DNA of 64,000 nucleotides from NCBI RefSeq assembly GCF_003664585.1, contig NZ_RCHI01000011.1, positions 62,001 through 126,000 on the forward strand, read 5' to 3'. A program made the translations under genes and the position numbers. Of this stretch, positions 41,028 through 57,558 are shown in pieces. Numbering within the stretch: the first letter of the stretch is position 1; every line of letters starts with the position of its first letter. Source of the DNA: Paenirhodobacter hankyongi. Lineage in GTDB: Bacteria > Pseudomonadota > Alphaproteobacteria > Rhodobacterales > Rhodobacteraceae. A model generated the notes under the pieces. The model saw nothing but the letters and a program-made list of their open reading frames with translations, was not told the DNA's origin and searched no databases.

Positions 41028-41104
41028 CGGGGCGTAGCGCAGCCTGGTAGCGCGTCTGTTTTGGGTACAGAAGGCCGTGAGTTCGAATCTCGCCGCCCCG
41101 ACCA
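41028..41104 (+). tRNA. tRNA-Pro(TGG)
   Basis: 77-base cloverleaf: acceptor arm CGGGGCG pairs with CGCCCCG, D-arm with GCGCAGCCTGGTAGCGC, anticodon arm TCTGT-TTTGGGT-ACAGA giving anticodon TGG (reads CCA), T-arm with GTTCGAATC, and encoded CCA. Its last 17 bases are the left attachment repeat of the adjacent integrated element, and the gene stays intact. Confidence 0.97.
41088..41104 (+). repeat. attL core (tRNA-Pro 3' end)
   Basis: TCTCGCCGCCCCGACCA, identical to 57542-57558. Flanking bases differ on both sides, so the identity is exactly 17 bp. It covers the acceptor 3' strand, discriminator base and CCA, the usual tyrosine-integrase target. Confidence 0.92.
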
Positions 41105-41418
41105 TCTAAAATTTCCGTTGCGAATCAATGACTTGAGTCAATCTTGTCGCCGCCATGTGTTACAGTCGCGTGGGTGTAACACATGGGCCATGCGAGCCTA
41201 GTGTGACTCGTCCGGCAGCTGGCAACTCGAAATGGAAAAGGGCGAGGCCGTGAAGCCCCGCCCTCTCACGGATAAAGTTCTGAGCACCGCGCAGCCAGAG
41301 AATAGCCGCCGTGCCATGTCGGGGTTGATGGATGCCCTCCGCGCACTGTTCCGACTGATCGCAGCTCGCTAGTGGGTAAGGAACCACAGGGGCGGGCCAG
41401 CCCTATTCAGTTGTCAGT
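41105..41418. other. Non-coding left end of the element with integrase arm-site-like repeats
   Basis: No convincing gene. Contains a perfect inverted repeat ATGTGTTACA (41155-41164) / TGTAACACAT (41175-41184) and an imperfect TGACT/AGTCA pair at 41129-41140. The same TGTGTTACAG word occurs twice as a direct repeat near the right end (57447-57456 and 57460-57469). Sharing of this word by both element ends, close to the cores, suggests arm-type binding sites of the integrase. Confidence 0.6.
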
Positions 41419-41595
41419 TCACGCGGCGATCTGCGCCACGCCCTCGCAATCGTCCCGACAGCCCTCGGGCATGACGCCCGCGTTCGCCAGCACGATCTTG
41501 ACTGCACTCTCGGGGTCCGCCGGGTGCTGCGCGGCCTCCACCAGATCGGCGGCGAGGCGGTGCCAGACTTCATCGCTGAGATAGATGTTCTTCAT
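41419..41595 (-). CDS. Hypothetical 58-residue protein beside attL
   Basis: ATG 41595 preceded by GGGAGCC; reads MKNIYLSDEVWHRLAADL and continues with an acidic/Ala-rich helical stretch to CEGVAQIAA. N-terminal segment resembles the start of a ribbon-helix-helix fold (beta strand then helix), but the protein is too short and divergent for a firm call. It is the last gene before the left attachment site and opposite the integrase end, so a directionality factor or small regulator is possible. A weak promoter-like pair (TAGAAT at 41623-41628, TTGCGC at 41647-41652, spacer 18) lies upstream. Confidence 0.55.
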   Translation of the reverse strand: MKNIYLSDEVWHRLAADLVEAAQHPADPESAVKIVLANAGVMPEGCRDDCEGVAQIAA

Positions 41596-41622
41596 TGGTG
41601 GCTCCCTGTTTCGATAGGCCAG

Positions 41623-41652
41623 ATTCTAGACCGCGGCGGATTCGGAGCGCAA
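41623..41652 (-). promoter_or_regulatory. Weak sigma70-like promoter for the 58-residue ORF
   Basis: On the minus strand: TTGCGC (3/6 to the -35 consensus), 18-base spacer, TAGAAT (5/6 to the -10 consensus), 28 bases before the ATG. An inverted repeat GATTAG/CTAATC (41680-41685/41702-41707) lies further upstream. Confidence 0.35.
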
Positions 41653-41701
41653 GAGGAAATTCCCGTAAAGCCATGAAATGATTAGTGATTATCGCTAAGC
41701 G

Positions 41702-42538
41702 CTAATCCATGTCGATCTGATCCATCAGGGCGTCAAGCTTGGCAATCGCGGCGGCCTCGGCGGCGGCTTCGATCATATCCAGCTCTTCGTCAGTCAGCTC
41801 CGCCGGGGCCGGTGCTGCGCTCGGCTTACCCTACCTGAGAACGATCACGGCACCATCCTTGCGAATGGCTTTGGCCGTGCGCAGTGTCTCAATTGCGCCA
41901 CCCACGAGCTTCCGCACCGCGTCCTCGGTGATGCTCAGTTTTTGCGCGAGGTCACTGACCACCGGGTCATTGATCGGATCGAACCGGCCCATCTCAAGCA
42001 ACCGAGCGCACACCATAAAGGCGACGTGTTGCTTGCTCGGGGCGAAGGGGTTTTGACCGCGGCCAATAGCGGTGCGGATGTGTTCGCGGCGCTTCTCGTT
42101 GCGCTCATTGCGCTCTGTCTTCTTTTGATCGGGCGTCAGCGTGACGTTGCGCCGGTATGATCTGACCTCGCGACCCTCTGCCTCGGCCCGGTCGGCATAC
42201 TCCATCCGCGTCTTGGCGAGCTTCGTCTGATATTCAGGATCTGCGGCGCGTGCCCTGGCGCGGGCGGCCTTCACCTTCGGGTCGGTGCGCTTCTGCCGGT
42301 TCGCGTCCGCGAGCAACTTCTCTTGAAAGTCGGTGAGACTGGAATACCAATCTTGCTCGCCCGCGGGGTCTTCCTCCCGGTCGGGCTTGGTCTTGTAAAG
42401 CTCGCGAGCGTAGGCGCGCGAACTCTTCGCGGTGATGCCATTGGGGTATTTGGCGCGAAACCACGTCAGCGTTTCCGCGTCGGGTTGCCCGGCATAGAGC
42501 TTCGGCACTAGCGGCTTGATCGTGGTCGCGGTGGTCAT
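41702..42538 (-). CDS. Unknown element protein, 235 residues, with in-frame amber then 42 more open codons
   Basis: ATG 42538 (MTTATTIKPLVPKLY) to a TAG at 41831-41833 gives 235 residues: a charged, Lys/Arg-rich helical middle (KKTERNERNEKRREHIRTAI) and a C-terminal helix-turn-helix-like segment (DLAQKLSITEDAVRKLVGG) ending VIVLR. The same frame stays open after the TAG for 42 codons (ELTDEELDMIEAAAEAA and on), ending at TAG 41702-41704; the tail looks like a genuine acidic helix. The coordinates cover both parts. Either a nonsense mutation, readthrough, or chance. A start at 42595 (ATGA overlap with the previous gene) would translate through a hairpin and low-quality sequence, so 42538 is preferred. 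Function unknown; DNA binding is plausible. Confidence 0.6.
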
Positions 42539-42562
42539 GAAAGTGCCCGTTGTAGAGGGGGC

Positions 42563-42591: not shown

Positions 42592-43041
42592 TCATTCGGC
42601 GGTCTTGTCGATCTGATTTGCCAGATCAACAGCAACGTCCAAGTTCAGCGGGAACTCGCGCTTCGTGATGGGCGACACGATCTTCACGCCGTTACCTGCG
42701 CGCTTCACCTTGACGCCGGTCAGAGCGCCGAGACCTTCGAGCCACCGCGCCTTGCGCTCGGGGTCCGAGGGGGTCAGCTCGCCAGACTCGCGCAGGAGGT
42801 CCGCGAGGGTCGGGCCTTCGCCAAGCGGGATCGTTACTTCAAAGCCGGACGCGGCCTTCACCACGATCTCGGGGCCGGTCTTGGTCACGTCGAGGCCGGG
42901 AATGTCGGCGGGGATCGTGCCTTTCGCGATCTCGGCCCGGACGAAATCGGCGATCACTTCGGGGATGGTCTGGCTCTTGGCGCGCGCGATCATGCGGAGC
43001 TGTTCCGCGCGTTCATTGGGGAGGCTGATATGGGTCGGCAT
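42592..43041 (-). CDS. Ribbon-helix-helix N-terminal protein, putative element regulator
   Basis: ATG 43041 gives 149 residues. An ATG at 43083 is in frame but would place the start on top of the promoter -10 box, so it is rejected. N-terminus MPTHISLPNERAEQLRMIAR followed by KSQTIPEVIADFVRAEIAKG has the strand-helix-helix pattern of ribbon-helix-helix (CopG/Arc-type) DNA-binding proteins; the remaining 100 residues (FEVTIPLGEGPTLADLL, VKRAGNGVKIVSP) are unfamiliar. The promoter in front carries a 14-bp palindrome between -35 and -10, so autorepression is likely by inference. Confidence 0.6.
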   Translation of the reverse strand: MPTHISLPNERAEQLRMIARAKSQTIPEVIADFVRAEIAKGTIPADIPGLDVTKTGPEIVVKAASGFEVTIPLGEGPTLADLLRESGELTPSDPERKARWLEGLGALTGVKVKRAGNGVKIVSPITKREFPLNLDVAVDLANQIDKTAE

Positions 43042-43101: not shown

Positions 43102-43718
43102 TGGGTGACCGAAGGATATTTGTGTTTCTCCGAATTTCTTGGAACCCATTTCGCTGGCCGGAATGGGAAAAGACATGTCAGCATTCCTTTCCAGTCTTAC
43201 GAAGGCGCACCCGGAGGTGATACGGTTTTGCACGTTACGGAGCCGAGGGGGGACGGAACCGAAGAGGAAGAAAACTGCACGATACCGCACCCGAAGAGGA
43301 AGAAAACTGCACGTTACGGCACCCGGAGGTGAGGGTGAGACAAATTTCTTCTAGGTGTTGAAGTCGCACCCGGAGGAGAGAAAGAGACACCCGGAGGCGT
43401 GTGAGACAAATTTCTTCCTATTATAGGTAATTCTCTTAGTAAGAGGTATTCACTAAGATAGGCGGAAATTTGTCTCACGTTTGCTTCCGTTCCCATCCCC
43501 GGCTGCGAAGAAAGCTACCTTTCTTCTCACACCCTCCCTCGGTCCCGAAAGGGGAGGCTCCCGGCTCAAACAAAGACGCACCCGGCACCCAACGCGGTCG
43601 TGTCGTCGCCAGACTCAACAGGAGAGTCACAGGCGCGCATCTAGGGGTCTCCGGCCACCCCACCACCCGGAAGCCCCTCGAGACTCACCCACGAGCCTAA
43701 AAACGGCCTCTGCGTCGA
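43102..43718. other. Non-coding segment of about 600 bases between the phage genes and the regulator
   Basis: Short ORFs on both strands here have repetitive, family-less translations and no good ribosome sites, so I treat the segment as non-coding. Its first half (43207-43478) is dense in direct and inverted repeats. It includes an AT-rich patch (43408-43476) unlike the surrounding DNA, with CCTATTATAGG (43417-43427) and CTCTTAGTAAGAG (43433-43445). The second half (43480-43718) shows nothing I can name. Confidence 0.6.
43207..43478. repeat. Iteron-like repeat cluster
   Basis: Three repeat families interleave. (1) CACCCGGAGG at 43208-43217, 43320-43329, 43367-43376 and 43388-43397, with a CACCCGAAG variant at 43288-43296. 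(2) A 23-bp perfect direct repeat at 43259-43281 and 43291-43313 (32-bp period), whose 3' end GCACG recurs with TTACGG at 43230-43240 and 43309-43319. (3) GTGAGACAAATTTCTTC at 43335-43351 and 43401-43417, with its inverted form GAAATTTGTCTCAC at 43465-43478. The arrangement next to an AT-rich patch resembles a replication origin or a multi-site operator. Confidence 0.7.
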
Positions 43719-44069
43719 TCAGGTTAGAATCGTGAAGTTCTCCACCAGTGTCGCAGTGAAGGTGCAGGGCGCCGCGTCTGTCATGCTCCACTCGGCGCAC
43801 GTCCACTTCCTCGGCGCCGTTTCGCCGTTTAGCACAAAATAGAACGGCACGTTCCCGCCTTGTCCGATGAAGAACGTGTCCAGCGCAAACGCCTCGTCGC
43901 GGGTCAGCGCATCCCACTTCAAGGTGATCTGCTTGCGGATGTGGTTGAGGCCAGCCGGTGCCGAGAGAGTGTAGCCGTCGCCAAAGTCAGCCGTGCGCAG
44001 GCTGACCTTGTTTGCGATACCTGTTCCGGGTGACGGACGGGGCGACGGGTCGAAGGTGTTCAGGGCCAT
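43719..44069 (-). CDS. Phage minor tail protein M-like
   Basis: 116 residues. The pattern NKVSLRTADFGDGYTLSAPAGLNHIRKQITLKW followed by EAFALDTFF and a C-terminal WTCAEWSMTDAAPCTFTATLVE matches the lambda gpM / phage minor tail family, which in lambda acts at the tail tip complex. Last clear structural gene of the element's morphogenesis block; follows the tape measure gene by 18 bases, the normal order. Confidence 0.72.
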   Translation of the reverse strand: MALNTFDPSPRPSPGTGIANKVSLRTADFGDGYTLSAPAGLNHIRKQITLKWDALTRDEAFALDTFFIGQGGNVPFYFVLNGETAPRKWTCAEWSMTDAAPCTFTATLVENFTILT

Positions 44070-44087: not shown

Positions 44088-46445
44088 TCAGCGCAGCATC
44101 CCGCCGGGGCGCATCTGGTTCACAAGTTCTTTCTGCACCAGTGCCCGGAACATGCGTTCAGCCTGTTCTGCCATCTGGGCGGCAAGGTCAGCGTTCTGGG
44201 CAGGTGTGCCGCCGGTCGCGTTGACAGTGATCGGGGCGCTGATCGTGACGGCCTGCGCGGGACTCCCAGAGCGCCCGAGAGTGCCCTTGCTGATCGCCGG
44301 GGCATCACCTACCAGCCCGCCCCCGGAATAGCCTCTGAGCGCCCGCGTATGAAGCGTGTCGAGGGCGTCCACGCCAAGGCGCTGCACCGCGGTCTTGGAC
44401 ATGACAAACTCGCCCTTGTGAACGATGCCCGCCGGCTGAAACTTCCCACCGTCGCCAGTATAGCCACCGGCCGCGAAGCCCAGCAGGCCACCGAGGCCCG
44501 CTGCCAGATCGGTTCCACTGAACATGCCGACGAACATCTTGTTCAGCTGCGCCTTGGCGAGCTCCGCCAGGAGCTGGACGAGGGCTTCCTCGGCGGTCAT
44601 GGCCCCCGTCGCGACGGCGGTGAAGACATCCGCCAGTGACTGGGCGCCAGCTTTCCCGGCCTCGTCGGCCTTCCTGAGCTTGGCGGCGGCCCTCTCGGCC
44701 TCGCTCCCGGCTTGCGCATAGCCCTGCGCCATCGCGTCAATCTGCGCCGTCAGCTCGGGCGTGATCTGCTTGCCCTCGGCCTGCGCCGCGGCCAAGAGCT
44801 TCGCCTTCGCATGGGCGGCATCCAGAGCGACGGCATAGTCAGAGCCCGCAGCCGCAGCGGCCACCAGCGCCACCGCCTCGGCGTCGAGCGCGGCCTTCTC
44901 GCGTTCAAGGTCAGCGACGGCCGCCGCGTAGCTGTCATGCGACCGACCACCAGCACCGCCGCCACCCCCCTTGCCAGATCCGCCGCCGACATTCTCGGAA
45001 ATCATCGCAGGCGCAGCCTTCGGACGCGGCGAGGCCTCGGGCGCATATTGCCCCGGGGGCAGCTCGATCTCCGCAGCTGTCAGGCCGGTTCCGGTGGTCA
45101 TGGGGAGTGACCCACCCGGCAGTGCCTCACGGGCCTCGCGGGCCTTCTGGCGAAGCGCTTCGAGTGCATCCCAGAGCCCGCCCAACCGTTCGATGACCTT
45201 CGAAAAGCGCGGGTTGTCGTCAATCTCATTCACCGAGGCCAGCGCGTCCTGCGCCTTGCGGATCAGCTCGGCCATGCGCTTCTCGAAATCGCCAGCGCTG
45301 ATCTCGCCTCGATCAAGCTGACCGGAAAGCGTCTGCATTGACAGGGCGGCATCTTCCAGCGCCTCACCGGCGCCGGTGTCGCCCATCCGCCGCAGCTCGC
45401 CACCGAACCGCGTGAGGATTGGCGCAAGCGTGTCGGCCTGCGACGCGAAGCGCTCGTAAAGGCTCAGCAGATCGCCGATGGCCTGCGCGTTGTCGGCGAC
45501 GGCCTGCCCGTTGCCTTCAAGCGCCCCGTTGACGTTCGGCCCGAGGATCTGGGGAGCCTGCGCGCGATTGCGGAACAGGTCCGAGGCCGCGAGCTTGTCG
45601 GTTTCGATCTGCGCGTTCAGCACCTGGGCAACAAAATCGGCGACGCCAAGCGCAGTCCGCTGCCAGCCCCGATGAATGCTATCGGTGAGCGCCGTATAGC
45701 GCCGGTCGAGCTGATCGGCTTTGTCGATCTGCTCTTGGGTGAGCACCGAGGCCCGCCCCATCATCGCCGAAATCCCACGCTCGCCGCGTCCAAGCATCTC
45801 AACGAGGCGCTCGCCGCCGGTGCCGCCGAATACCTCGTCGGCGATGCGGATCTGTGCGGCCTTGTCGAAGCCTTCGAGGCGCCTAATGATTTCGAGCATG
45901 AGCGCCGAGGGGTCTTTCAGACGCTTGGCAAGGTCGGTTGCCGAAAATCCGAGGCGCTTGAACGCATCCGCGCCCGAGCCGCTGCCTGTGGTGACGAACT
46001 CGTCAGCGCGCAGCGACAGCTCCTTGAAGCCATCGGTCAGCGCATCAATCGAAATCCGGTTCTGTGTGGCGACGTAGCTCCACCGCTGGAAGGCTTCGGC
46101 CTCCACGCCCGCGCGCCGGGCTTCGTTGCCGATCTCGGCAATGCCCCTCACCGTCTCGCGGATCTGGCCCGCTGCGGTGCCCAGAGCTGCACCGATGCCA
46201 GCACCCGCCAGCCCCGCGATGCCGACGCCGACGCCGGGCAGCGGAATGCTCTTGAAAGCGCCCGCCATCTTCGAGCCGAGGCCGGTATAGGTCGCGGCCA
46301 TGCGGTCTGCCGACCGCTTCGCGCGGGTTTCCATGTCGCGGGCGAACTTCGATTGCGTTTGGCTCGCGCGCTTCAGCGCCCTTTCCAGCTTGTCCACGCG
46401 CGCTTCAACCGGGACGATCAGGCCGGGCAGTGCAATATCAGTCAT
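44088..46445 (-). CDS. Phage tail tape measure protein
   Basis: 785 residues. N-terminal domain with Lys/Arg-rich helix (VDKLERALKRASQTQSKFARDMETRAKR), a Gly/Ala-rich hydrophobic patch (VGIAGLAGAGIGAALGTAAG), long helical coiled-coil regions, and a C-terminal segment FAAGGYTGDGGKFQPAGIVHKGEFVMSK characteristic of tape measure proteins of lambda-like siphophages. Its length would predict a tail of roughly 110-120 nm by the usual 0.15 nm per residue rule. TerL immediately precedes it, which is not the canonical neighbour. Confidence 0.88.
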   Translation of the reverse strand: MTDIALPGLIVPVEARVDKLERALKRASQTQSKFARDMETRAKRSADRMAATYTGLGSKMAGAFKSIPLPGVGVGIAGLAGAGIGAALGTAAGQIRETVRGIAEIGNEARRAGVEAEAFQRWSYVATQNRISIDALTDGFKELSLRADEFVTTGSGSGADAFKRLGFSATDLAKRLKDPSALMLEIIRRLEGFDKAAQIRIADEVFGGTGGERLVEMLGRGERGISAMMGRASVLTQEQIDKADQLDRRYTALTDSIHRGWQRTALGVADFVAQVLNAQIETDKLAASDLFRNRAQAPQILGPNVNGALEGNGQAVADNAQAIGDLLSLYERFASQADTLAPILTRFGGELRRMGDTGAGEALEDAALSMQTLSGQLDRGEISAGDFEKRMAELIRKAQDALASVNEIDDNPRFSKVIERLGGLWDALEALRQKAREAREALPGGSLPMTTGTGLTAAEIELPPGQYAPEASPRPKAAPAMISENVGGGSGKGGGGGAGGRSHDSYAAAVADLEREKAALDAEAVALVAAAAAGSDYAVALDAAHAKAKLLAAAQAEGKQITPELTAQIDAMAQGYAQAGSEAERAAAKLRKADEAGKAGAQSLADVFTAVATGAMTAEEALVQLLAELAKAQLNKMFVGMFSGTDLAAGLGGLLGFAAGGYTGDGGKFQPAGIVHKGEFVMSKTAVQRLGVDALDTLHTRALRGYSGGGLVGDAPAISKGTLGRSGSPAQAVTISAPITVNATGGTPAQNADLAAQMAEQAERMFRALVQKELVNQMRPGGMLR

Positions 46446-46461: not shown

Positions 46462-48069
46462 TCAAAACACATAGAGTCCGCCCGCACCGGGCGCGTTGTA
46501 GGCACTGGAATTGCCGCCGCTCAGCGCAAGCCGCCCGACTGCCATCGCAGCCGCCACCGATCCGTCAATATGGCCGTGCTTCTTGTCGGCCTTGTCCTGC
46601 CAGATCAGGCCGTTTCGTTCGACGGCATACACACCTTCGAAGTGCCGGCGCAGAACCGCGTTGCCGTCATGCCGGATCAGGCGACCATTCACGGCGCGCA
46701 CAAGCTCACCATTGGCAGGCCCCATCTGCGTCAGGTTCTGCCGAAACTGCACCATCGGCAGGCCGTCGGTGTAAAGCTCGGCTGCCATCGCTTGCAGCTT
46801 GTGCGGGTCATAGGCGACCTCTTGGACGTTATGGCGCGCACAGATTTCCACGATCTTGTCGGCCACCACCTGTTGCGGGACCACCGGGCCGGGGACCGCT
46901 TCAATCAGCCCATCCCTGACCCATTGCTTATAGGGCAGACCTTCGAGGCGTTCGCGCTCTTCCAGCGTCTCGGCCTGCACATAGAACCACGGCTTAATCG
47001 TGATTTGCCCGTCAGGATGCGCCCACGCTGCGACGATAGCCGAGAGGTCGCCAGAGGACGCATAGTCAACGCCTACCCAGCAATCCAGCGCCTCAAGGTC
47101 GGCTTCGTCGTTATCAAACCGACGCGCGTCGAAGGTGTCCATGTTGAACAGGGGCGCGGTGCTGTTGCCCAGCCATTCGTTCAGGGCGTATTGCCGGAAG
47201 GAATATGCCTCGGAAGGGTTTTCCCTGGCCTCGGTCGCCTTCGTGCGCAGCTCGGACAAGACCGGGTAGCCGTAGCTCAGGCCGGGGTTGACCTTGTGCC
47301 ACGTCGCCTCATCCAGCCAATCGTCATCTTCTCCGGGCTCGAAGATGACCGGCAGGATTTCCGGGTTCACGATCTCGCCGAGGGCGATCTTGCGCACGTA
47401 GCTGTAACGATCATACGCCAGCCCCTCGCGGCCCCGGCCTGCGGTCGTCGCGGTGATCCAGAGACCACCGGCGCGCTTGGTCATACCGGATCGCAGGGCC
47501 TCCCAGAGGTCACGCCCCTTCCAGACGTGAACCTCATCGGCGAGAACGAATGTCGGCGTTGTGCCGTGCATCGCCTTGCCGTCGCTCGACACCGCCTTGA
47601 GCGTCGAGCCGTCGCGGGTGCTCCTGATCGTCTTCGGCGCGTTGTTCGCGTCATAGACCTTCGTCACGGCTGCAACGCGCGCGTCCTGACGGATGATCTC
47701 GGCAGCCTCGCGAAAGCCGATGCCAGCTTGTTCACGATCCGAAGCGGCAAAGATGATCTGACCGGCAGGCACGCGTTCGGGTCCAATCAAGTGCAACAGC
47801 GCCAGCGCAGCCGCGAGCGAGGTCTTCCGGTTGCCACGGGGAACCTGCAACCAGACTTCCTTGACGATCCGCGAGCCGTCCGCGTTGCGCGGCCCATAGA
47901 TGCGCCGAACGATCCGCTCTTGCCACGGGTCGAGCTGAAAGGCGCGCTTCGGTTCCGTGCTGGCCGGGTGGCGCAGACGGCGCAGGAACTGCACGGCGCG
48001 CTCGCCATGGCCGAGGGGGTCGGGGATCGGCGAGTTATCGAAGACCCATTCAGGATAGGTGCTTGCCAT
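46462..48069 (-). CDS. terL: Phage terminase large subunit
   Basis: 535 residues. ATPase domain with Walker A-like VPRGNRKTS (76-84) and Walker B FVLADE (174-179); nuclease domain with the first catalytic Asp in VGVDYASSGDLSAIV (D335) and a late acidic motif in HIDGSVAAAMAVG. Sequence style is that of HK97/lambda-like cos or P27-type terminases. Starts three bases after TerS. Apparently complete and intact. Confidence 0.93.
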   Translation of the reverse strand: MASTYPEWVFDNSPIPDPLGHGERAVQFLRRLRHPASTEPKRAFQLDPWQERIVRRIYGPRNADGSRIVKEVWLQVPRGNRKTSLAAALALLHLIGPERVPAGQIIFAASDREQAGIGFREAAEIIRQDARVAAVTKVYDANNAPKTIRSTRDGSTLKAVSSDGKAMHGTTPTFVLADEVHVWKGRDLWEALRSGMTKRAGGLWITATTAGRGREGLAYDRYSYVRKIALGEIVNPEILPVIFEPGEDDDWLDEATWHKVNPGLSYGYPVLSELRTKATEARENPSEAYSFRQYALNEWLGNSTAPLFNMDTFDARRFDNDEADLEALDCWVGVDYASSGDLSAIVAAWAHPDGQITIKPWFYVQAETLEERERLEGLPYKQWVRDGLIEAVPGPVVPQQVVADKIVEICARHNVQEVAYDPHKLQAMAAELYTDGLPMVQFRQNLTQMGPANGELVRAVNGRLIRHDGNAVLRRHFEGVYAVERNGLIWQDKADKKHGHIDGSVAAAMAVGRLALSGGNSSAYNAPGAGGLYVF

Positions 48070-48770: not shown

Positions 48771-48772
48771 GG

Positions 48773-50121: not shown

Positions 50122-50802
50122 TCAGGCTCTTCTGCGCTTGTCGGACGGATCCAGAGCCTCGGCAATCGAGCGACCAGCTCGCAGGCGGTTCTTGATCGTC
50201 AGCACCTTCAGGCCGGTGCGCGCTGACCACTCAGCGAGTGTCAGGGTCTCGCCCTCATGGGTGAGGCGCTTTGCCGGGGTGCCGCGCGCCCAAGTGCCGC
50301 CCGTCGCCGCAGCCTTCGAGCGTTCCCTCGCCTCTTCAACCGAAGTCGTCAGTGCTTCCTCGACTGACCAGCCTGACCGCAGCCGCCCGTTCAGCGTATG
50401 GAATTTGATGCCGGTGCGCGCTGACCACTCTTCGAGCGTCAGGGTCTCGCCTTCAAAGGTGTAACGAATAGGCTCTGGCTTGACCTTCGGGGCAGGGGCT
50501 GGCTCGCGTTTCGCAAGGCTGCGCACATCACGCGGTTCAGCGACCAGCTCTTCAGGCGAAGGGGCCGCTGCGATCCGAGGCCCCATGCGCTCGATCAGCG
50601 CTTGCATGTCGATACCGGCTAGGCTGCACGCCTTAGCCAGATCAGAACTCGGCGTTGTTAGGTAGTCACGCGCACGACGGCACTCAAGCAAACGCGCCCT
50701 TGCTTTGCCGACTTCAGAGCCGGGGCCATAAAGCGCGTCTTCAACTGCCAGTAAGAGAACCGATTGCCAAAGACGTTTCTCAGCATCAGGTGCCGACGAC
50801 AT
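50122..50802 (-). CDS. Putative DNA-binding protein with duplicated HTH-like motif
   Basis: 226 residues. N-terminal helical domain (EKRLWQSVLLLAVEDALYG, ARARLLECRRARDYLTTPS, KACSLAGIDMQALIERMGP) resembles a conserved phage regulator type. The C-terminal half has two copies of a 37-residue unit: FEGETLTLEEWSARTGIKFHT with LNGRLRSGWSVEEAL, and HEGETLTLAEWSARTGLKVLT with IKNRLRAGRSIAEAL. Such units look like minimal helix-turn-helix repeats seen in phage and homing-endonuclease-associated proteins. Overlaps the HNH gene by 17 bases. Function beyond nucleic acid binding is not assignable. Confidence 0.6.
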   Translation of the reverse strand: MSSAPDAEKRLWQSVLLLAVEDALYGPGSEVGKARARLLECRRARDYLTTPSSDLAKACSLAGIDMQALIERMGPRIAAAPSPEELVAEPRDVRSLAKREPAPAPKVKPEPIRYTFEGETLTLEEWSARTGIKFHTLNGRLRSGWSVEEALTTSVEEARERSKAAATGGTWARGTPAKRLTHEGETLTLAEWSARTGLKVLTIKNRLRAGRSIAEALDPSDKRRRA

Positions 50803-51139
50803 GGCTTGCGCGCTCTTCGCGTTGCTTGTGGCGGTTGTGACAGGGCGCGCAGAGCGGTTGCCAGTTGTGGCGGTCCCAGAAGAGCGCCTTGTTTCCCCGG
50901 TGCGGGATGATGTGATCGACCACCGTCGCAGGCGCACCGCACATAGCGCAATCGGGGTGTGCGGCAAGGAACGCCTTGCGCTCCTTCTGCCAGTCGGTCG
51001 TGTATCCACGCTCGCGGGCTGAGGGGCGTTTCGCATCGTGGCGGCGGTTCCGGGCGCGGGTGCTGGCGATCTGGCAGGCGCAACGCGCGCCATGGGCGAC
51101 CAAGCGGCCACAGGTGCAGATATGGGGCGGGCGAGGCAT
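50786..51139 (-). CDS. HNH endonuclease
   Basis: 117 residues. A cysteine-rich N-terminus (CTCGRLVAHGARCAC) followed by a standard HNH core: CAMCGAPATVVDHIIPHRGN with CxxC and DH, then WQPLCAPCHNRHKQ with N/H and CxxCH zinc ligands. Free-standing HNH proteins of this size help TerL cut cos DNA in HK97-like phages. Starts by one-base overlap (TGATG) with the tail protein I gene. Confidence 0.85.
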   Translation of the reverse strand: MPRPPHICTCGRLVAHGARCACQIASTRARNRRHDAKRPSARERGYTTDWQKERKAFLAAHPDCAMCGAPATVVDHIIPHRGNKALFWDRHNWQPLCAPCHNRHKQREERASHVVGT

Positions 51140-51861
51140 CAGTGATCGCTTTGGAAGAAGATCGGCGGCAGCCCGTTGTTGCCGCTGGTCTCGGTAGTCT
51201 TTTGCTCGTCCGTTGCTTTGTTGGTGAACGGCGCGAAGAGAGTCTTCACATCGAGCGTGGTTTTCTGCTTGCCCTTCGGCCCGACCTTGGTGGTCAGGAT
51301 ACCGTTGATCATGGTGCCGCCGCAGACGACTTCACCGTATGCGATCGGAACGATGCCGCCCTCGCGGGTAGTGGTGACGGGGCCAGACGAGGAGTAGTTC
51401 GGATCTTCCTTCTCGGTCTCTTGCTGGGGCGCGATAAGCGAGGCCACGCCGGTCAGAAGCAGGCCGGTGCCCAATGACCCTATAACCGAAGCCGTTGACA
51501 TAGTGCCGCCTGCAAACAGTGGCGCTGCAAGCGCAGCGCCACCGAAAGCAGAAAGGCCAATCAGAGCGATGCCGGCGATGACCTTACCGATGCCGCCGCG
51601 CTTAGAGCCCTTCAGGACCGGAACGATGTGCAGATCTTGCTTGCCGAGCTTGAAGCCGGGCAGGTCTTCCTCGCCCAGTTCGAGACCGTTCTTCTCGGTC
51701 TTGCCGACGACAACGCGGTAGAAGCCTTCGCGAATATGGTTGGCAAAGCCTGCGAAGTTCGCCCGCAAGGCTTGAATAGCCTCGGGGACAGTATCGACGG
51801 CGAATTGATGACTACGGCCAAAGGTCTTGCCGATGTTTCCGTGAAGATGAATCGTGCGCAT
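51139..51861 (-). CDS. Phage tail assembly protein I-like (TipI)
   Basis: 240 residues. N-terminal ubiquitin-like segment MRTIHLHGNIGKTFGRSHQFAV, VPEAIQALRANFAGF and the HIVPVLKGSKRGGIGKVIAGIALIG start of a Gly/Ala-rich hydrophobic region match the lambda gpI family. The C-terminus (VPIAYGEVVCGGTMINGILTT) resembles gpI/gpJ junction sequences. In lambda-type phages it is followed by the host-specificity protein J; here an HNH gene follows and J is absent. Confidence 0.8.
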   Translation of the reverse strand: MRTIHLHGNIGKTFGRSHQFAVDTVPEAIQALRANFAGFANHIREGFYRVVVGKTEKNGLELGEEDLPGFKLGKQDLHIVPVLKGSKRGGIGKVIAGIALIGLSAFGGAALAAPLFAGGTMSTASVIGSLGTGLLLTGVASLIAPQQETEKEDPNYSSSGPVTTTREGGIVPIAYGEVVCGGTMINGILTTKVGPKGKQKTTLDVKTLFAPFTNKATDEQKTTETSGNNGLPPIFFQSDH

Positions 51862-52488
51862 TTACATGGCTTTCAGGCGAGCCAGCCCAGCCCGGTCGAA
51901 GTCAGGATCGAGACCCGCTTCAGTGTTGGCTTGGCGCTGTGCTGCGGTTTGTTTTGAATTGGTTTGACCCGGTGCGCTTTGATCCGACCCGCCGTTGACC
52001 GCGATCAGGTGCGCAATCTTGCCCTCAAAAGCCTGTGCGATCTCGGCGGGGGTGGCGGCCCAGGTCTCGGCGGGCGACCATCCGAGCCACCCGGTGCCAA
52101 GGCGAAACAGCTCTGCATAGGTCTCGGACCACGGCTTCGGCTGCGTCAGCGCGGGCGACGTCTTTTCGCCTGTGTCGTCGCCATCCAGCGGGGAGAGGAA
52201 CAGCGCCATCAGCTCGGCCAGAGGCTCGGCCGCGGCGGCCTTGATCTCGGCAAGCGGGCGGTTCTCGAAGGAATGCAGAAGGGCCTCGGCGGCGAACCCA
52301 GAAACCGCAGAGGCCCGAATGAGCGCTTGCACCGTTTCGAGCGAGAACTGACCGAGGCGAACCACAAACCTCGGCCAGCCATCGTGCAAGCGCTCAAGCG
52401 TCATCGCCGCGCGCAGGGTGGGCCGGAGCGTCACGACATGGGGGCCGTGGCGCACCGTCACCTCAGAACTGCGCGCGAGCGGGTTCAT
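51862..52488 (-). CDS. Tail assembly chaperone-like protein (second copy)
   Basis: 208 residues, starting two bases after the capsid stop. N-terminal VTLRPTLRAAMTLERLHDGW with SLETVQALIRAS and LLHSFENRPLAEIKAAAAEPL; C-terminal part ELFRLGTGWLGWSPAETWAATPAEIAQAFEG is a motif familiar from GTA/phage tail assembly chaperone extensions. Tail chaperones normally sit between the tail tube and tape measure genes; this one follows the capsid gene. The family call is by eye and moderate. Confidence 0.6.
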   Translation of the reverse strand: MNPLARSSEVTVRHGPHVVTLRPTLRAAMTLERLHDGWPRFVVRLGQFSLETVQALIRASAVSGFAAEALLHSFENRPLAEIKAAAAEPLAELMALFLSPLDGDDTGEKTSPALTQPKPWSETYAELFRLGTGWLGWSPAETWAATPAEIAQAFEGKIAHLIAVNGGSDQSAPGQTNSKQTAAQRQANTEAGLDPDFDRAGLARLKAM

Positions 52489-52490
52489 GC

Positions 52491-53993
52491 TCAGGCCGCG
52501 AGCTTGAGCTTCGCCAGAGCCTCACCAAGCACGACACGGCCACCGACGCGGCGACGGGCGTGCAGCTTGACGATGCCATTCGCGGCGCCGGTGTAGTCGT
52601 CGCGCATGATCTCGAAGCCGGTGCGGTCGGCAATGGTGTAGCCCTCGGCGAAGTCGCCGAAGATGATCGGCGACTTGCCAGCGGTCGGCGCGTCCATGTC
52701 CACAGCTTCGTAGACCGGACGGCCCAGAAGGGTGGCGGGCTGGCCTGCGGTGAGCGCGGGCTGCCAGAGGAACGAACCGTTCGCGTCGGTGAGCTGACGA
52801 ATAACAGCCATCGTCGCACGGTTCATCAGCCACGCGCCGTTGTTCGAGTAGGCCGTTTTCAGCGAATAGAAATGGTCAATCAGGGCGGCGGCGGTAATCG
52901 CGGCCACTTCGTTCTCCACGACCTCGGTCGAGGTCATCACGCCTTCGGCGGCGGTGGTGCCGTTGCCGGTGACGAACCATCGCGCCTCGATCTGGCCGAA
53001 GCGGCGGGCGATGTGGTTCGAGAGGTAGGCGTTCAGGTCAACCTGTGCGTCTTCCAGAAGAATGCGCGTGACCGGCACGATGACGGCCATTTCAAACGGC
53101 TTGAGGTCGATCTGTTCAAAGGTCGGCTCAGACTCGGGGCGCGCTCCGGTCTCGGTGACATGGGCGGGCTGCACTTCATCCACCAGACGGGGCAGTTGCA
53201 GAAGCGGGCCGCCCATGCTGATCGCCGAGGCAAGGCCGCGCAGAGGCGACTGTTCCGCGATTTTCTCGATGATCGACGCCGAGACGGTTTCCGGGGCGAG
53301 AATGCTGCCGGTCGAGGGCGCGCTGTAAGCGAGGTTCTTGCGCTCGCCGGTGCGCAGGTAGTCGGTGAAGCCCTTCACCTCGTCTTCGCCCATCACCGGG
53401 TTCTGGGTGCCGGAGGCGATGATGCCGGGGCGGTTGCCCTTGGCTTCGAGCTTGTCGAGGCGGGTCTTGATCTCGTCAAAGGCTTTGGTGTCGATCTGCG
53501 GCACCTGAGCCGCGGTCGTTTCGTTTTCCACGGGTGAAAGTTCCTTGTTCAAAAAAGTAGATTTCAAAGAGGTGATCTGCGCGCCGGGGTGGGCCGGAAC
53601 GGCAACAATGCTGATTTCGTGAAGCTCAAGGGCGGTGATGCGACGGCCTTTTCCTTCGCGCTTGGCGTCCTTGGTGACAAAGCCGATGGACAGGCCCGAG
53701 ACGGCACCCGCCTTGACCATCGCGCGCACCTCACGGGCGCGCTCCACGTCTTCAATCAGGAGGCGGCCTTTCACCGTCAGGCCCGCGTCGGTCTCGGCGA
53801 TCTCATCCCAGACGCCGACGACCTGGCCCTGATCGTGCGCGAAGAGCATGGGCAGCGTGGCCGGGCCGGTGAAGGCGCCCTTGACGATCACGTCGCCCAC
53901 CCGGTCGGCAGAACCGAACGGCCAAGCGATGCCGGTGATCTCGCCGGAATCGCTGACGCTCAGGTCGGCCTTGATCTCAAGTCGCTCGGTCAC
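52491..53993 (-). CDS. Prohead protease-major capsid protein fusion (HK97 type)
   Basis: 500 residues. Residues 1-140 form a HK97-type prohead protease: EITGIAWPFGSADRVGDVI, catalytic His in LPMLFAHDQGQVVG (H53), catalytic Ser in GAVSGLSIGF (S99), and LHEISIVAVPAHPGAQI. A helical scaffold-like delta segment (about 155-190) leads to a HK97-fold capsid domain (about 200-500: GSILAPETVSASIIEKI, MAVIVPVTRILLEDAQVDL, ARRFGQIEARWFVTGNG, LLGRPVYEAVDMDAPTAGKSPIIFGDF). Start overlaps the upstream chaperone gene as ATGA. Confidence 0.9.
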   Translation of the reverse strand: MTERLEIKADLSVSDSGEITGIAWPFGSADRVGDVIVKGAFTGPATLPMLFAHDQGQVVGVWDEIAETDAGLTVKGRLLIEDVERAREVRAMVKAGAVSGLSIGFVTKDAKREGKGRRITALELHEISIVAVPAHPGAQITSLKSTFLNKELSPVENETTAAQVPQIDTKAFDEIKTRLDKLEAKGNRPGIIASGTQNPVMGEDEVKGFTDYLRTGERKNLAYSAPSTGSILAPETVSASIIEKIAEQSPLRGLASAISMGGPLLQLPRLVDEVQPAHVTETGARPESEPTFEQIDLKPFEMAVIVPVTRILLEDAQVDLNAYLSNHIARRFGQIEARWFVTGNGTTAAEGVMTSTEVVENEVAAITAAALIDHFYSLKTAYSNNGAWLMNRATMAVIRQLTDANGSFLWQPALTAGQPATLLGRPVYEAVDMDAPTAGKSPIIFGDFAEGYTIADRTGFEIMRDDYTGAANGIVKLHARRRVGGRVVLGEALAKLKLAA

Positions 53994-54340
53994 GCCGCCA
54001 CCTTGAGCGCGGGCGCTTCCGCCTCAGGCTGCGCGACGCCGTTCCAGCGCGCTTCCATCACCTCGAAGGCCAGCGGGAAAATCTCGGCGAGCGGGCGGTT
54101 CGCGACATAGGCCGCGCAGAGGTGTTTTGCCTCTTCGGGATCTGTGCCGCCACCGATCAGGCCGAGGCGGATGATTTCGCCCAGCACGTTCGCCGGATAG
54201 GCGAGGTTCACGAGCTGGAAATAGAGCGCGCCCACGCCGAGGTCGGTGAGGCGTTCCAGCTCGGCAAGCATGGGGTCAGTGAGGGCGAAGGCGCGCTCCT
54301 TGTCACCAAAGAACGTGTGGAGGGTAATGAGGTCAGTCAT
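53990..54340 (-). CDS. GTA-gp10-like tail assembly chaperone
   Basis: 116 residues from ATG 54340. FFGDKERAFALTDPMLAELERLTDLGVGAL, EIIRLGLIGGGTDPEEA and YVANRPLAEIFPLAFEVM match the gene-transfer-agent gp10 / phage tail chaperone family very well, notably IRLGLIGGG and RPLAE. Placement between portal and protease genes is abnormal for this family. Overlaps the portal gene by eight bases. Confidence 0.75.
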   Translation of the reverse strand: MTDLITLHTFFGDKERAFALTDPMLAELERLTDLGVGALYFQLVNLAYPANVLGEIIRLGLIGGGTDPEEAKHLCAAYVANRPLAEIFPLAFEVMEARWNGVAQPEAEAPALKVAA

Positions 54341-55523
54341 TCGAAGGGGCTTTCTGAGAAGTAGGCGCCGAGGGGGCGGCGCTGGTCGTGTAAGGATTTT
54401 CGAGGGTGTCGCCGTCCGCATGGGGCGGCAGGTTCAGACCGGCCCGGACCTCGTTCGCGGTCATCGCACCCATGCTGCGATATTGGCCGTAGGCGTTCGC
54501 CCGCGCCGCGGTGTCGGTGGTGGTCAGGTCGTCGGTGACGAACTCCACATAGAGGTCACGCCGTTCCTCGGGCGTCAGCAGGCACCGGGCATAGGCCCAT
54601 GCCCAGGTCGCGAGCCACGGCTTGAGTGTCACTTGCAGGAACTGGCGGGCCATTTCCTCGGTGTTTGACCATGTGCCGCGCGTCAGCTCGAAGAGCATCG
54701 TCGGCGGAACCCGGAACACGCGAGCGATTTCGCGGATCTGTTCAAGGCGGTTGTCGGCGAATTGGCTATCGGCGAGCGTCATCGTGACAGTCTCGAAGGA
54801 CATGCCTTCATCGAGAATGGCGGTGCCACCCGAACGGCCCGAGCCATGCGCTGCGGTCCAGCTCGCGGCCAGGTTGGCCTTCGCCTGATCGCCAAGCGTC
54901 TTCTCGGTCTTGAGAATGCCACCGGGCTTGCCACCGTTCGCGAAGAGCTTGGCAATGTGCTCTTCGAACGCCAGAGCAAGGCCGATTGCCTCACGCCCGA
55001 GGGTGATCGGCGAGGCACCCCCGAAGGCGCTGACGTGCAGAATGTCGGTGAAGGCGTAGCGGTGACGGCCGTCCGCGAGCTGCACGAGATAGCTCGGTTC
55101 GCCGCTCGCGTCGGTTTCAATCTGAACTTGCGTCGGGTCGAGCCGGTGCAGCTCGACAGGTTCGCCCGCACCGTTGCGCACCACGAGGGCGAAGCCATGA
55201 CCGCGCAAGAGGGCATCAGTCGTGAGCTGCACCCGCAGTGCCTCGGCAGAGGTCCAAGGGTTCGCCTCGTCGTGCATGAGGGAATAGGCGGGGTGGTCGG
55301 TGATCGTGGCGCGGCCATCGCGCTCGAAGAGCTTCACCGGCAGCGAGCCGACAGTCTCGGCGATCAGGGCAACGGCACAGGCAACAGCGGGGACACGCAG
55401 GGCACTTTCTGCCGTGACGGTCTTGCCGGTCAGGGTCGGGACGATACCGAAAATCGGAAGGGCGGTGGGGTCTGAGACCGCCACCGCCTTCCTCGTGAGA
55501 AAGGAAAGGGCTTTCTGAAACAA
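54333..55523 (-). CDS. Phage portal protein (HK97 type)
   Basis: 396 residues. VTAESALRVPAVACAVALIAETVGSLPVKLFER, then GHGFALVVRNGAGEPVELHRLDPTQVQ and FRVPPTMLFELTRGTWSNTEEMARQFLQVTLKPW are classic HK97 portal signatures. The start codon appears to be TTG at 55523, with an in-frame stop two codons upstream; a GTG 13 codons later with AGGAAGG in front is the alternative. Promoter-like boxes lie 37-65 bases upstream. Confidence 0.92.
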   Translation of the reverse strand: MFQKALSFLTRKAVAVSDPTALPIFGIVPTLTGKTVTAESALRVPAVACAVALIAETVGSLPVKLFERDGRATITDHPAYSLMHDEANPWTSAEALRVQLTTDALLRGHGFALVVRNGAGEPVELHRLDPTQVQIETDASGEPSYLVQLADGRHRYAFTDILHVSAFGGASPITLGREAIGLALAFEEHIAKLFANGGKPGGILKTEKTLGDQAKANLAASWTAAHGSGRSGGTAILDEGMSFETVTMTLADSQFADNRLEQIREIARVFRVPPTMLFELTRGTWSNTEEMARQFLQVTLKPWLATWAWAYARCLLTPEERRDLYVEFVTDDLTTTDTAARANAYGQYRSMGAMTANEVRAGLNLPPHADGDTLENPYTTSAAPSAPTSQKAPSND

Positions 55524-55559
55524 AGGTCACTCGAAACAGGGGCACTCGTAATAGGTGTT

Positions 55560-55588
55560 ATATTACCCCATGCGGGGCAGAATGTGAA
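55560..55588 (-). promoter_or_regulatory. Sigma70-type promoter with inverted repeat, upstream of portal gene
   Basis: Minus strand: TTCACA (55588-55583, 5/6 -35), 17-base spacer, TAATAT (55565-55560, 4/6 -10). The spacer contains the inverted repeat CCCC-GCAT-GGGG. Just upstream, ATCCCC/GGGGAT arms (55588-55607) form a second hairpin beyond the integrase stop. Confidence 0.6.
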
Positions 55589-55614
55589 TCCCCTAATCGA
55601 AGGGGATCACGATT

Positions 55615-57420
55615 TCATTGCGCTAGGTGGTCGAGGTTCAAGCCGGGGTAGGCGATCGCGTTAATCAGCTCCACGCGCTGCTCAAGCATCCCTTGCGGCA
55701 TCTGCCCGTAACGGCCAGTCATGGACGCTTCGGCATGTCCGAGGATGAAACCGAACTGATTGTCGAGGTAGCCAGCCCGACGCAGGGCGTCGGCGGCACC
55801 ATGCCGGAAAGAGTAGAGCGACAGGCCGCGGCCTTCCTTGAGGCCGATGCGCTTGAGATACTTTCCGAACTCGCGCGAGAACTCGGCCATCATCTGACCA
55901 CGTTCATTCCTCTTCGCACCGGGGAAAAGCTGCTTGTCACCGGCCTTCACGCGGTCGGCGTGGTAACCGAGGAAGCCGAGCCGGATCAACTCGGGATGCA
56001 CGGGCACGACGCGCATTGACCCTTCGGTTTTGACCGACTTGCCTTGCTCAGTCTGATCGCCCTCGGTGGTGATGTGAAACACCCAATGGCCGTGCAGCTC
56101 GCGCACGTCATTGGTCGCGAGCTGGCCGATTTCGCCATTCCGTGCGCCAGAGAACAGCATGACGAGCGGCACCCAATAGCGGTGGTCGCGGATCTGCACG
56201 TCACCGGGCCGGGAGATATACCGCCACTCACCTTCCTTGTCGCTCTGTGCCCCGGTGAAGAGGGGAGAGCTGAACAGGATGTTCAACTGCTCTGACGTGA
56301 AGGTCTGGGTCTTGGATCTCTTCTCCTTCGGCAGCGACATGCCCGACACGGGATTTTGTGCGAGGTAGCCGTTCGACACGAGCCAGTTGCAGAAGGCCCC
56401 GAGGCTAGAGAGGTAGCGGTTCACCGTGCGGTCGGACAGGACCGGGCGACCGAGCTTTTCGTTCGCCTTGACGATCTGGTGAATATTCATGCCTTTGAAG
56501 TCGTTCACCTCTGACGCGCGGACGGGATACTTGACGAGAAGGGCCTTCCAGTCGCGCACGGCCACCTTGTCGATAGCGTGAACCGGGAAGCTCGCCCCGA
56601 CGCATTCAACGAAGGTGCCCACGTCGCGCCGGGTTTGGTCGAGACGATCTTGAGCAACGCGGCGCGGGTTCTCGCGAGCGAATATCTCGAAAACTTCCAT
56701 GATCTTCTCGCCGGGTTTCGCTACCTCGCGGCGAGGGCCGGTTGCAGGCTTCACCAGAGGGTCGCGGGGCTGGCCCGAGTAGTCGCCCCGGTCGCGCTCT
56801 ATGGCGCGGTCAAGGGCTTCGATCTCGGCGCGCATCATATGTCGGGCGAGGCTGATCCAATCAGGCGTGCCACGTTCCACCAGAAGGCGGTTCTCGTCCA
56901 GATAGGCGTCAACCTCGTGAGCGATCAGTGCCGTCTCGCCCTGCGCGAGCTGCCGGCGCATATCCGCGACCTTCACCTTGCGAGCCTCCGAAGCCACCGC
57001 GCTCGCTTCCTGCTTGGCTTTGAGGTCAAGCGAGGCGTCGAGAATCACAAGAGGGTCGGCGCTGGCGATCTCGCCACGCTGTGCCCGCCCGATCAGTTCG
57101 GACCTCGCTTGCTCAATCTCAGTCTCGCCGGGGAGATTCGCGCGCTCTGCTTCATCTCGCTCCATGGTGGCGGTGTAGTGATCCCAAACCGCGTGCTCAC
57201 GGTCCGCAGGCACCAAAGAGCGACGTGAACGAAGGTCGTCAAAGCCTCGCTGCCATTCAGAAATTACTGGATAGAGGCGGCGCTTTGCTTCGGCTTCGTC
57301 ATTGGTGCCAAGCGCCTTCACCAGCTCACGCTTGCCGATGATCTGCACCAGATCAAGCGGAACGCGAATCCGGGCAGAGTAGGCGGCGCCGCGACGGATG
57401 AGGTGACTAATGCGAGCCAT
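55615..57420 (-). CDS. int: Tyrosine site-specific integrase
   Basis: 601 residues, long for the family. N-terminal DUF6538-like segment (ISHLIRRGAAYSARIRVPLDLVQIIGKRELVKAL) and long helical middle. SAM-like core-binding domain precedes the catalytic domain. Catalytic residues: R427 in LFSGARNGEIGQL, R539 and H540 in YSFRHGAADAL, H562 in ILGHAEASM, and the nucleophile Y571 in TGRYGQ. The first His of the usual HxxR box is replaced by Tyr (Y536). It lies 121 bases from attR, opposite the intact tRNA. Confidence 0.92.
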   Translation of the reverse strand: MARISHLIRRGAAYSARIRVPLDLVQIIGKRELVKALGTNDEAEAKRRLYPVISEWQRGFDDLRSRRSLVPADREHAVWDHYTATMERDEAERANLPGETEIEQARSELIGRAQRGEIASADPLVILDASLDLKAKQEASAVASEARKVKVADMRRQLAQGETALIAHEVDAYLDENRLLVERGTPDWISLARHMMRAEIEALDRAIERDRGDYSGQPRDPLVKPATGPRREVAKPGEKIMEVFEIFARENPRRVAQDRLDQTRRDVGTFVECVGASFPVHAIDKVAVRDWKALLVKYPVRASEVNDFKGMNIHQIVKANEKLGRPVLSDRTVNRYLSSLGAFCNWLVSNGYLAQNPVSGMSLPKEKRSKTQTFTSEQLNILFSSPLFTGAQSDKEGEWRYISRPGDVQIRDHRYWVPLVMLFSGARNGEIGQLATNDVRELHGHWVFHITTEGDQTEQGKSVKTEGSMRVVPVHPELIRLGFLGYHADRVKAGDKQLFPGAKRNERGQMMAEFSREFGKYLKRIGLKEGRGLSLYSFRHGAADALRRAGYLDNQFGFILGHAEASMTGRYGQMPQGMLEQRVELINAIAYPGLNLDHLAQ

Positions 57421-57541
57421 CGGGCGCGCTCCATGTGGAAGGGCTGTGTGTTACAGTCATGTGTTACAGATTGACGGGAAATCTGCAAGCGATTACATAT
57501 TGTTAGTTGAAAATAACGGCTTGCGGAAAACGTTATTATGT
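57421..57541. promoter_or_regulatory. Integrase upstream region with direct repeats (right arm sites)
   Basis: TGTGTTACAG occurs at 57447-57456 and 57460-57469 (13-bp period), the same word as the left-end inverted pair. An ATAACG/CGTTAT inverted pair follows near 57510-57537. Likely holds both the integrase promoter and arm-type binding sites, allowing integrase autoregulation. Confidence 0.6.
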
Positions 57542-57558
57542 TCTCGCCGCCCCGACCA
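57542..57558 (+). repeat. attR core
   Basis: Second copy of TCTCGCCGCCCCGACCA, exactly matching the 3' end of tRNA-Pro. No remaining tRNA sequence accompanies it, as expected for the distal end of a tRNA-integrated element. Confidence 0.9.

Follow-up and report, generated by a model that had tools for sequence, protein, structure and literature searches.

A probable capsid-forming phage satellite with tape measure and chaperone genes in a tRNA-Pro gene of Paenirhodobacter hankyongi

The stretch analysed here, called the window below, consists of 64,000 nucleotides of DNA from Paenirhodobacter hankyongi (contig NZ_RCHI01000011.1, positions 62,001 to 126,000; G000:C3:62001-126000 in our numbering, in which G000 is the window's genome). 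It holds a phage-like element inserted at a proline tRNA gene, which a reading of the sequence alone had described as a reshuffled, incomplete element of about 16.45 kb with intact attachment (att) core repeats and as a possible capsid-encoding satellite. The 17-bp direct repeat TCTCGCCGCCCCGACCA is present in two exact copies, at 41088-41104 in the 3' end of tRNA-Pro(TGG) and at 57542-57558. The corresponding site is empty in a genome of the same genus (G046:C7), to which the joined flanks of the element align as one unbroken block of 1857 columns with 89.7% identity. We therefore delimited the insert as 41105-57558 (16,454 bp), and both its size and its target were thereby confirmed. The GC content is about 0.69 in much of the window and about 0.60-0.67 over the element and its right flank. 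The features are listed below in the order in which they follow one another on the minus strand from the integrase, with profile matches in brackets; ORF stands for open reading frame, GTA for gene transfer agent and pLDDT for the predicted local distance difference test, and homologue counts refer to the 160 related loci described further on.

57542..57558, plus strand: second att core repeat (supported by the empty site in a relative)
55615..57420, minus strand: tyrosine integrase with DUF6538 N-terminal domain (PF00589, 1.2e-6; PF20172, 6.8e-19)
54333..55523, minus strand: portal protein (PF04860, 1e-95)
53990..54340, minus strand: short tail assembly chaperone, TAC_11, GTA-gp10-like (PF11836, 1.2e-21; predicted fold, pLDDT 87)
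52491..53993, minus strand: fused prohead protease and HK97 major capsid protein (PF04586, 1.5e-23; PF05065, 1.2e-71)
51862..52488, minus strand: long tail assembly chaperone, TAC_6 (PF09550, 5.4e-7; predicted fold, pLDDT 86)
51139..51861, minus strand: lambda tail assembly protein I-like (phrog_32, 8.4e-45; sub-threshold in Pfam, 22.0 vs 23.8 bits)
50786..51139, minus strand: HNH endonuclease (PF01844, 1.6e-7, over cut-off)
50122..50802, minus strand: ORF overlapping the HNH gene, with internal repeat, conserved in the family (homologue in 103 of 160 loci)
49667..49951, minus strand: head-tail connector Ad1, gp6-like (PF05135, 4.9e-15)
49188..49679, minus strand: HK97-gp10-like neck protein (PF04883, 4.8e-9)
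48773..49195, minus strand: tail completion protein gp17, DUF3168 (PF11367, 3.1e-16)
48459..48785, minus strand: head completion or closure protein (PF05521, 8.7e-16)
48073..48462, minus strand: terminase small subunit, TerS (PF05119, 1.3e-15)
46462..48069, minus strand: terminase large subunit, TerL (PF03354, 2.7e-23; PF20441, 2.1e-26)
44088..46445, minus strand: tail tape measure protein, 785 aa (phrog_10574, 3.6e-114 over residues 7-767; PF10145)
43719..44069, minus strand: minor tail protein M-like (PF05939, 1.8e-12)
43199..43490, no strand: non-coding, iteron-like stretch with a tandem pair of 32 bp as well as CACCCGG and inverted repeats
42592..43041, minus strand: putative regulator resembling ribbon-helix-helix proteins, so labelled by eye (63 of 160 loci with a homologue)
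41831..42538, minus strand: 235-aa protein, hardly conserved (homologue in 1 of 160 loci; no convincing family match)
41419..41595, minus strand: 58-aa protein, conserved among family members and of unknown function (95 of 160 loci with a homologue; its cluster in 79 of 111 loci)
41088..41104, plus strand: att core repeat, 17 bp, within the tRNA 3' end (exact match to 57542-57558)
41028..41104, plus strand: tRNA-Pro (TGG), the integration target (ARAGORN)

The portal, protease-capsid, connector, HK97-gp10, gp17, closure, TerS, TerL and tape measure proteins all passed the Pfam cut-offs and no internal stops were seen, which bears out the sequence-only reading where it had called the head, connector and terminase genes intact-looking. 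These genes stand in the order that it had given, but its list was incomplete, as the two chaperone genes (53990-54340 and 51862-52488) had been overlooked. Its "HNH" is an endonuclease, as stated, but not a single gene: two overlapping ORFs lie there, and the second (50122-50802) belongs to a stretch slightly longer than itself that matches phrog_3377 (3.3e-17). The assignment of tail I is strong in PHROGs and falls just below the Pfam cut-off. The regulator candidate at 42592..43041 gave no Pfam, PHROG or NCBIfam match.

A complete siphophage would in addition have tail tube, tail tip and lysis genes. Among the scanned ORFs of the window no family of tail tube, L, K, J, primase or AlpA and no separate lysis gene was matched, which agrees with what had been claimed for tube, tip, lysis and replication genes, except that two PHROG labels were met and discounted. 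One, phrog_8985 ("tail tube protein"), falls on TAC_11, whose predicted fold is helical with a beta hairpin; the other, phrog_1768 ("endolysin"), lies over the C-terminus of the tape measure, and we interpret it as a match to tape measures. Both TAC proteins were predicted as helical bundles with a beta hairpin and not as the beta-rich fold of a tube, and TAC_6 looks in the models like the TAC_11 fold with a helical extension. Fold searches of the Protein Data Bank (PDB) yielded no significant result for either protein, only a weak match of TAC_6 to an HK97 chaperone (E 6.9). On the basis of predicted secondary structure, position and family names (the Pfam name of PF11836 is TAC) we regard the product of 53990-54340 as a probable chaperone and not a tube. 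Phage lambda has a short and a long chaperone, G and GT, a pair of which TAC_11 and TAC_6 are reminiscent. The element thus has, as judged from its sequence, a complete-looking set of head, neck and packaging genes, a tape measure and two chaperones, and no recognisable tube or tip.

To place the element among its relatives, we searched with a TerL alignment, by which 289 relatives were detected among genome contigs and 584 or more in IMG/VR. From each collection we examined the 80 best TerL matches, giving 160 loci that extend no further than 10 kb to either side of TerL; there is some overlap between the collections. Portal, capsid and TerL genes were held by 135 loci (70 genome, 65 IMG/VR) in 106 TerL clusters. 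The order of nine core genes, as far as present, was identical in 135 of 135 loci, and all nine were held by 114; in none of the 135 was TerL upstream of the portal. The element had been called reshuffled, and this is true relative to ordinary phages; it is not an accident of this strain, for the order is common to all these relatives. Whether any relative shares the order is thereby answered. Equally, the larger prophages in canonical order that had been envisaged at such sites did not turn up, TerL coming first in 0 of 135 loci and tip seeds matching in 0 of 160. These seeds were the J, K and L proteins of a lambdoid prophage in G046 and GTA g12-15 (with provisional assignment of K, L and the GTA gene numbers from gene position), and phmmer at 1e-5 gave no match over 21,271 ORFs. 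With profiles of our own, seeded from the window, G046, plasmid pMPOP02 and the tail clusters of G000 and G046, 117 of the 135 loci fell into group A, the type of the window: TAC_11 was found in 108 of them, TAC_6 in 116, HNH in 101, the integrase in 109 and a tail tube in 2. None of the recurrent ORFs remaining in gaps of group A loci was matched by the tube profiles.

A capsid search of 295 genomes of the family led to 12 regions that were inspected, several of which adjoin different tRNA genes. The run from portal to tape measure stood in the same order in G252, G026, G025, G031 (TerL interrupted), G046, G250 and G047; the G091 region and a second one in G026 were cut by contig ends, G245 held a capsid fragment only and G294 only portal and capsid. 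We take the relatives to be mostly Rhodobacterales and Hyphomicrobiales, the orders being assigned from genus names in record titles; one metagenome-assembled genome is titled Exiguobacterium, perhaps by mislabelling. Phaeovulum vinaykumarii and Celeribacter neptunius are among the carriers of related elements. A close phage ancestor was sought among annotated phages and was not found: no TerL of at least 60% identity occurred among 1560 matching records (best among the matches listed, 32%), the best capsid among the matches listed had about 35% identity, and none of the 537 records matching the tape measure reached 80% coverage. Over shorter stretches the tape measure does resemble phage sequences (phi2LM21 at 54% over 21%; a single record lies in the 60-80% band). 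Tape measure matches on E. coli and Shigella plasmids were set aside, pMY504-4 having an ordinary lambda-like gene order and the Shigella plasmid listing a baseplate gene and no head gene.

Traces of mobility are widespread in the family. Repeats derived from tRNA genes of 14 anticodon types delimit 39 of the 80 genome loci at 16.5-18.9 kb (median 17.9), in a search in which elements of up to about 21 kb were visible; as a control, random segments of 72 nt were used, for which a 15-nt copy turned up on the opposite side in 19 of 1423 trials. Counted by eye, all but one of the 80 IMG/VR contigs have lengths of 20.2 kb or less, the exception being 30.5 kb long. Some relatives are circular plasmids: that of Paracoccus marcusii (17,494 bp) carries a Rep_3 initiator and lacks an annotated integrase, and pMPOP02 of Methylorubrum populi (23,392 bp) harbours a Tn3 element and has a tube gene located between capsid and TAC_6. 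Two further small plasmids (16.1 and 16.9 kb) share TerL at 38-39%. The closest relative, L171, has structural and packaging proteins 86-99% identical to those of the window, while the two integrases are only distantly similar, at 30% identity where they match. The ratio of nonsynonymous to synonymous substitution rates (dN/dS) against L171 was 0.03-0.37 in structural and packaging genes (portal 0.19, capsid 0.18, TerL 0.15, tape measure 0.27, gp17 0.085); these values show that the structural genes, including that of the tape measure, are under purifying selection.

These results bear on the explanation that the element is a decaying prophage, once a complete siphophage, that has lost the genes for tip, lysis and replication and undergone rearrangement in this strain. 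Ordinary siphophages do carry these genes, and the M-like and tail I genes of the window are sporadic (in 15 and 12 of the 117 group A loci). Some copies in the family do decay, since TerL is truncated in G016, which also has no tape measure, and TerL of G031 (L035:17274-18284) is interrupted by about 1.1 kb with a reverse-strand 336-aa ORF. Against this stand the same core order across Rhodobacterales and Hyphomicrobiales relatives, the similar sizes, the integration at many tRNAs, the purifying selection, the empty site in a relative and the lack of any TerL-first relative among the 135. The uninterrupted frames had already been held to speak against simple decay, and together with the low dN/dS and the conserved order they set the element apart from a defective remnant. 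The conserved family has largely refuted decay as an explanation, and we consider it very improbable.

The known elements that come closest are the capsid-forming phage-inducible chromosomal islands (cf-PICIs), to which an AlpA or Stl-like regulator and a primase module also belong; the scanned ORFs of the window matched neither. The excerpts of the literature at hand (PMC10690885; PMC13230959; PMC11389934) describe cf-PICIs with their own capsid, protease, portal, connectors, both terminases and HNH, and with borrowed tails. The window has the major capsid, protease, portal, head-tail connectors, TerS, TerL and HNH, and an integrase with an att site, but it also has tape measure, two chaperone, tail I-like and M-like genes, whereas cf-PICIs lack tail genes. 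We have therefore filed the element, on its gene content, as a variant that seems to work like a cf-PICI and not as a member. The E. coli EDL933 element at NZ_CP008957.1:1680329-1694760, which we take to be EcCIEDL933, illustrates both sides. Like the window, it has the integrase at one end, head genes before the terminase, a connector, closure, HNH and P27-family TerS followed by TerL, in about 14 kb and with no annotated tail gene. Unlike the window, its order is major capsid-protease-portal-closure-connector-HNH-TerS-TerL, it has no annotated gp10, gp17, chaperone or tape measure, and it carries a DUF927 gene, a single-stranded DNA-binding protein and a helix-turn-helix regulator, to which the window shows no match.

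Other satellites show partial likeness. The Vibrio satellite-plasmids called cf-PISP, as excerpts of PMC13230959 present them, are capsid-forming satellites in plasmid form, comparable to the P. marcusii and M. populi plasmids, but they belong among gammaproteobacterial cf-PICIs without tail genes. MulchRoom and MiniFlayer, Streptomyces phage satellites in excerpts of PMC10690885, likewise have their own head and terminase genes and no primase; they differ in parasitising virulent phages, MiniFlayer has a tail fibre gene, and the word "tape" is absent from the excerpted text. Among the papers listed in searches of PMC, no title or abstract opening described satellites with a tape measure, a scope outside which the main cf-PICI papers fall, and the excerpts of PMC10690885, PMC13230959, PMC11389934, PMC13345588, PMC5537653, PMC11476347, PMC13386836 and PMC11409702 do not describe such elements.

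The tape measure gene lies within 1.5 kb after TerL in 136 of the 148 loci with room downstream (68 of 76 genome and 68 of 72 IMG/VR loci). Its product, aligned with 138 relatives, shows conservation over residues 121-240 and 641-785 and variability over 281-520, as would be expected of a working ruler with two docking ends. If the element were an ordinary cf-PICI, its tape measure and chaperones would be passengers, or interference genes that sabotage helper tails. Such an account follows the logic of cf-PICIs, which in the excerpts of PMC10690885 combine their own heads and terminases with helper tails, and three elements (L153, L225 and L237) manage without a tape measure, if they are alive. 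But the usual place of the gene after TerL and its conserved ends speak against it, and sister elements that have tube, tape measure and chaperones together suggest a structural role; we judge it unlikely.

These sister elements form group B, 12 of the 135 loci, which have a tube in 12 of 12 and other chaperones. The group B element of G046, in the same genus as the window, consists of integrase, Arc-like regulator, AlpA, prim-pol, portal, chaperone, protease-capsid and two tail tube proteins, followed by connectors, terminases, tape measure and chaperone; no tip gene was seen in it. PICIs have AlpA and a primase, and in these this element is like them, the tail shaft with its two tube genes being extra. 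At the other extreme, six of the 135 loci had no tape measure match. L230, L240 and L243 end at most 334 bases after TerL and are uninformative, and L153 (Ensifer sesbaniae), L225 and L237 (both IMG/VR) continue for 2.0-10.0 kb. The latter three share with the window the order portal-major capsid-Ad1-closure-TerS-TerL and the TerL clade; unlike it, they have a large gene of DUF3987 or Prim-Pol type (in Pfam, Prim-Pol over cut-off in L237, DUF3987 over cut-off in L225 and below it in L153) and no match to tape measure or chaperone profiles. In a TerL tree of 33 chosen rows, in which the E. coli row is very long-branched, all 28 rows of group A, group B and the tape-less elements came together (100/100), apart from 4 phages and the E. 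coli element. Within this cluster the groups are not fully sorted, the group A row L159 sitting with the tape-less rows and the group B row L168 alone. The tree supports a shared lineage of the three kinds; a separation from all phages would go beyond its sample of 4. It is possible, and we propose it tentatively, that alphaproteobacterial satellites show graded tail independence (head only; head with tape measure and chaperones, as in the window; tube in addition), the middle class making hybrid tails whose length the satellite sets.

A satellite of this kind would need a helper, and a helper prophage had been suggested elsewhere in the genome. The outcome was mixed. In the window's genome there was no phrog_31 J match and no sheath, the single PF13550 match lies in a GTA-like cluster at C5, and besides the element that cluster holds the only tape measure; three other loci with GpA terminases are present, their tails not found and the assembly broken there. 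Two of the three lie on short contigs with identical ends, where neighbours are untraceable, so absence of a helper is not established. The GpA-type clusters have head genes and are located at G000:C49:65.6-76.5 kb (L273, L274), G000:C22 (L276) and G000:C24 (L275). In the C24 cluster a lambda-family portal and a head-tail attachment protein were matched, no tail genes were recognised near any of the three, and C22 (16.2 kb) and C24 (14.6 kb) are the contigs with identical end sequences. They could represent additional satellites without tails, or else prophages that the assembly has split. Among ten carrier genomes a phrog_31 match occurred in six, strong only in G046 and G047, and the C-terminal part of the group B tape measure resembles that of the G046 prophage (57.6% over 59 residues).

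The GTA cluster itself could be the source of tails or tips for the satellite heads, since the only other tape measure and the only PF13550 match of this genome lie in it. GTAs of the RcGTA type share with the element a GTA-gp10 type chaperone and an HK97-type capsid, and the RCAP_Rcc01079 family of spike base proteins is represented in some relatives. A GTA is an immobile host-integrated cluster without its own integrase and att site; the element has an integrase, att repeats, an empty counterpart site and its own TerS, its relatives occupy many sites, and the GTA-like cluster of the genome lies elsewhere. None of the 160 loci had a sequence match to the GTA tip seeds, the GTA tape measure has about 217 aa against 785 aa, helpers need not be resident, and the three other terminase loci may belong to prophages with unseen tails. 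We think it most unlikely that the GTA supplies the tail.

Taken together, the element is likely to belong to a conserved alphaproteobacterial family of phage satellites that integrate, form their own capsids and complete their tails with helper parts. Dependence on a helper is inferred because tip and lysis genes are missing, an own small head because of the size and the gene set, and a hybrid tail because a tape measure and chaperones occur without tube or tip. When a siphophage grows in the cell, the element would excise and replicate, possibly from the iteron region at 43.2-43.5 kb, and its own terminase would fill its own small heads with about 17-18 kb. The particles would be completed by the addition of helper tail parts: the satellite chaperones would hold the satellite tape measure, which would dock on the helper tip through its conserved C-terminal part and fit the satellite gp17 and neck with its N-terminal part, and the helper tube protein would polymerise around it. 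The length and the head end of such a hybrid tail would be set by the satellite, and lysis would be supplied by the helper. The comparison suggests that a large set of alphaproteobacterial sequences otherwise filed as small viruses or damaged prophages is one coherent family of helper-dependent satellites. If true, satellites can own any share of a tail and not just none, and the family would be a natural system for the matching rules among tape measure, chaperone, tube and tip. Such satellites could move DNA among marine and soil bacteria, rhizobia included, by way of any usable tails.

Several points weigh against this interpretation. No helper was identified, the tape measure searches of the window's genome finding only the satellite and the GTA. 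The 135 loci, being best TerL matches from partly overlapping collections, are not 135 independent events. The three elements without a tape measure and the decayed copies in G016 and G031 have been mentioned; selection is weaker on TAC_6 (dN/dS 0.37) and the 58-aa ORF (0.60), and tail I, M and the 235-aa ORF have no counterpart in L171. PDB fold searches gave no significant match for either chaperone, and both PHROGs and the Pfam text of PF11836 call the TAC_11 family "tail tube"; if TAC_11 were a tube, less would be borrowed from the helper. With no primase or AlpA match, the replication and induction routes of group A are guesses.

As to replication and regulation, profiles for AlpA and PrimPol, each built from few sequences, matched 0 of the 117 group A loci. 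The iteron-like region at 43199..43490 is a candidate origin, regulatory or packaging site; an 18-nt motif in it occurs twice in the window, and L171 has 4 copies spaced 32-51 bp apart. A Rep-like ORF with an H-x-H motif seen by eye and a match to PF23343 below the cut-off is present in 24 of 111 group A loci (L201:13863-14414 and 23 others) and is possibly a rolling-circle initiator for part of the family.

Some loci carry genes of their own between the core genes. After TAC_6, L098:6551-6841 and L051:5602-6009 are genes for an RCAP_Rcc01079-family spike base protein (NCBIfam NF048002, above the cut-off), presumably the base of the GTA head spike, and the gap between TAC_6 and Ad1 may therefore be a place of exchangeable head-surface or cargo genes. 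After the head closure gene, five of 111 loci (L172:9175-9549 and 4 others) have a reverse-strand ORF of 120-129 aa, weakly chagasin-like below the cut-off, a possible cargo gene. Between head closure and TerS, some members have a 213-aa gene (L033:15805-16446; L055:13271-13912), of which the L033 copy matches a phage DNA methyltransferase family (phrog_757, 9e-56) and the L055 copy has no Pfam match. The 58-aa protein (41419-41595) is a widely conserved and as yet unexplained gene of the family.

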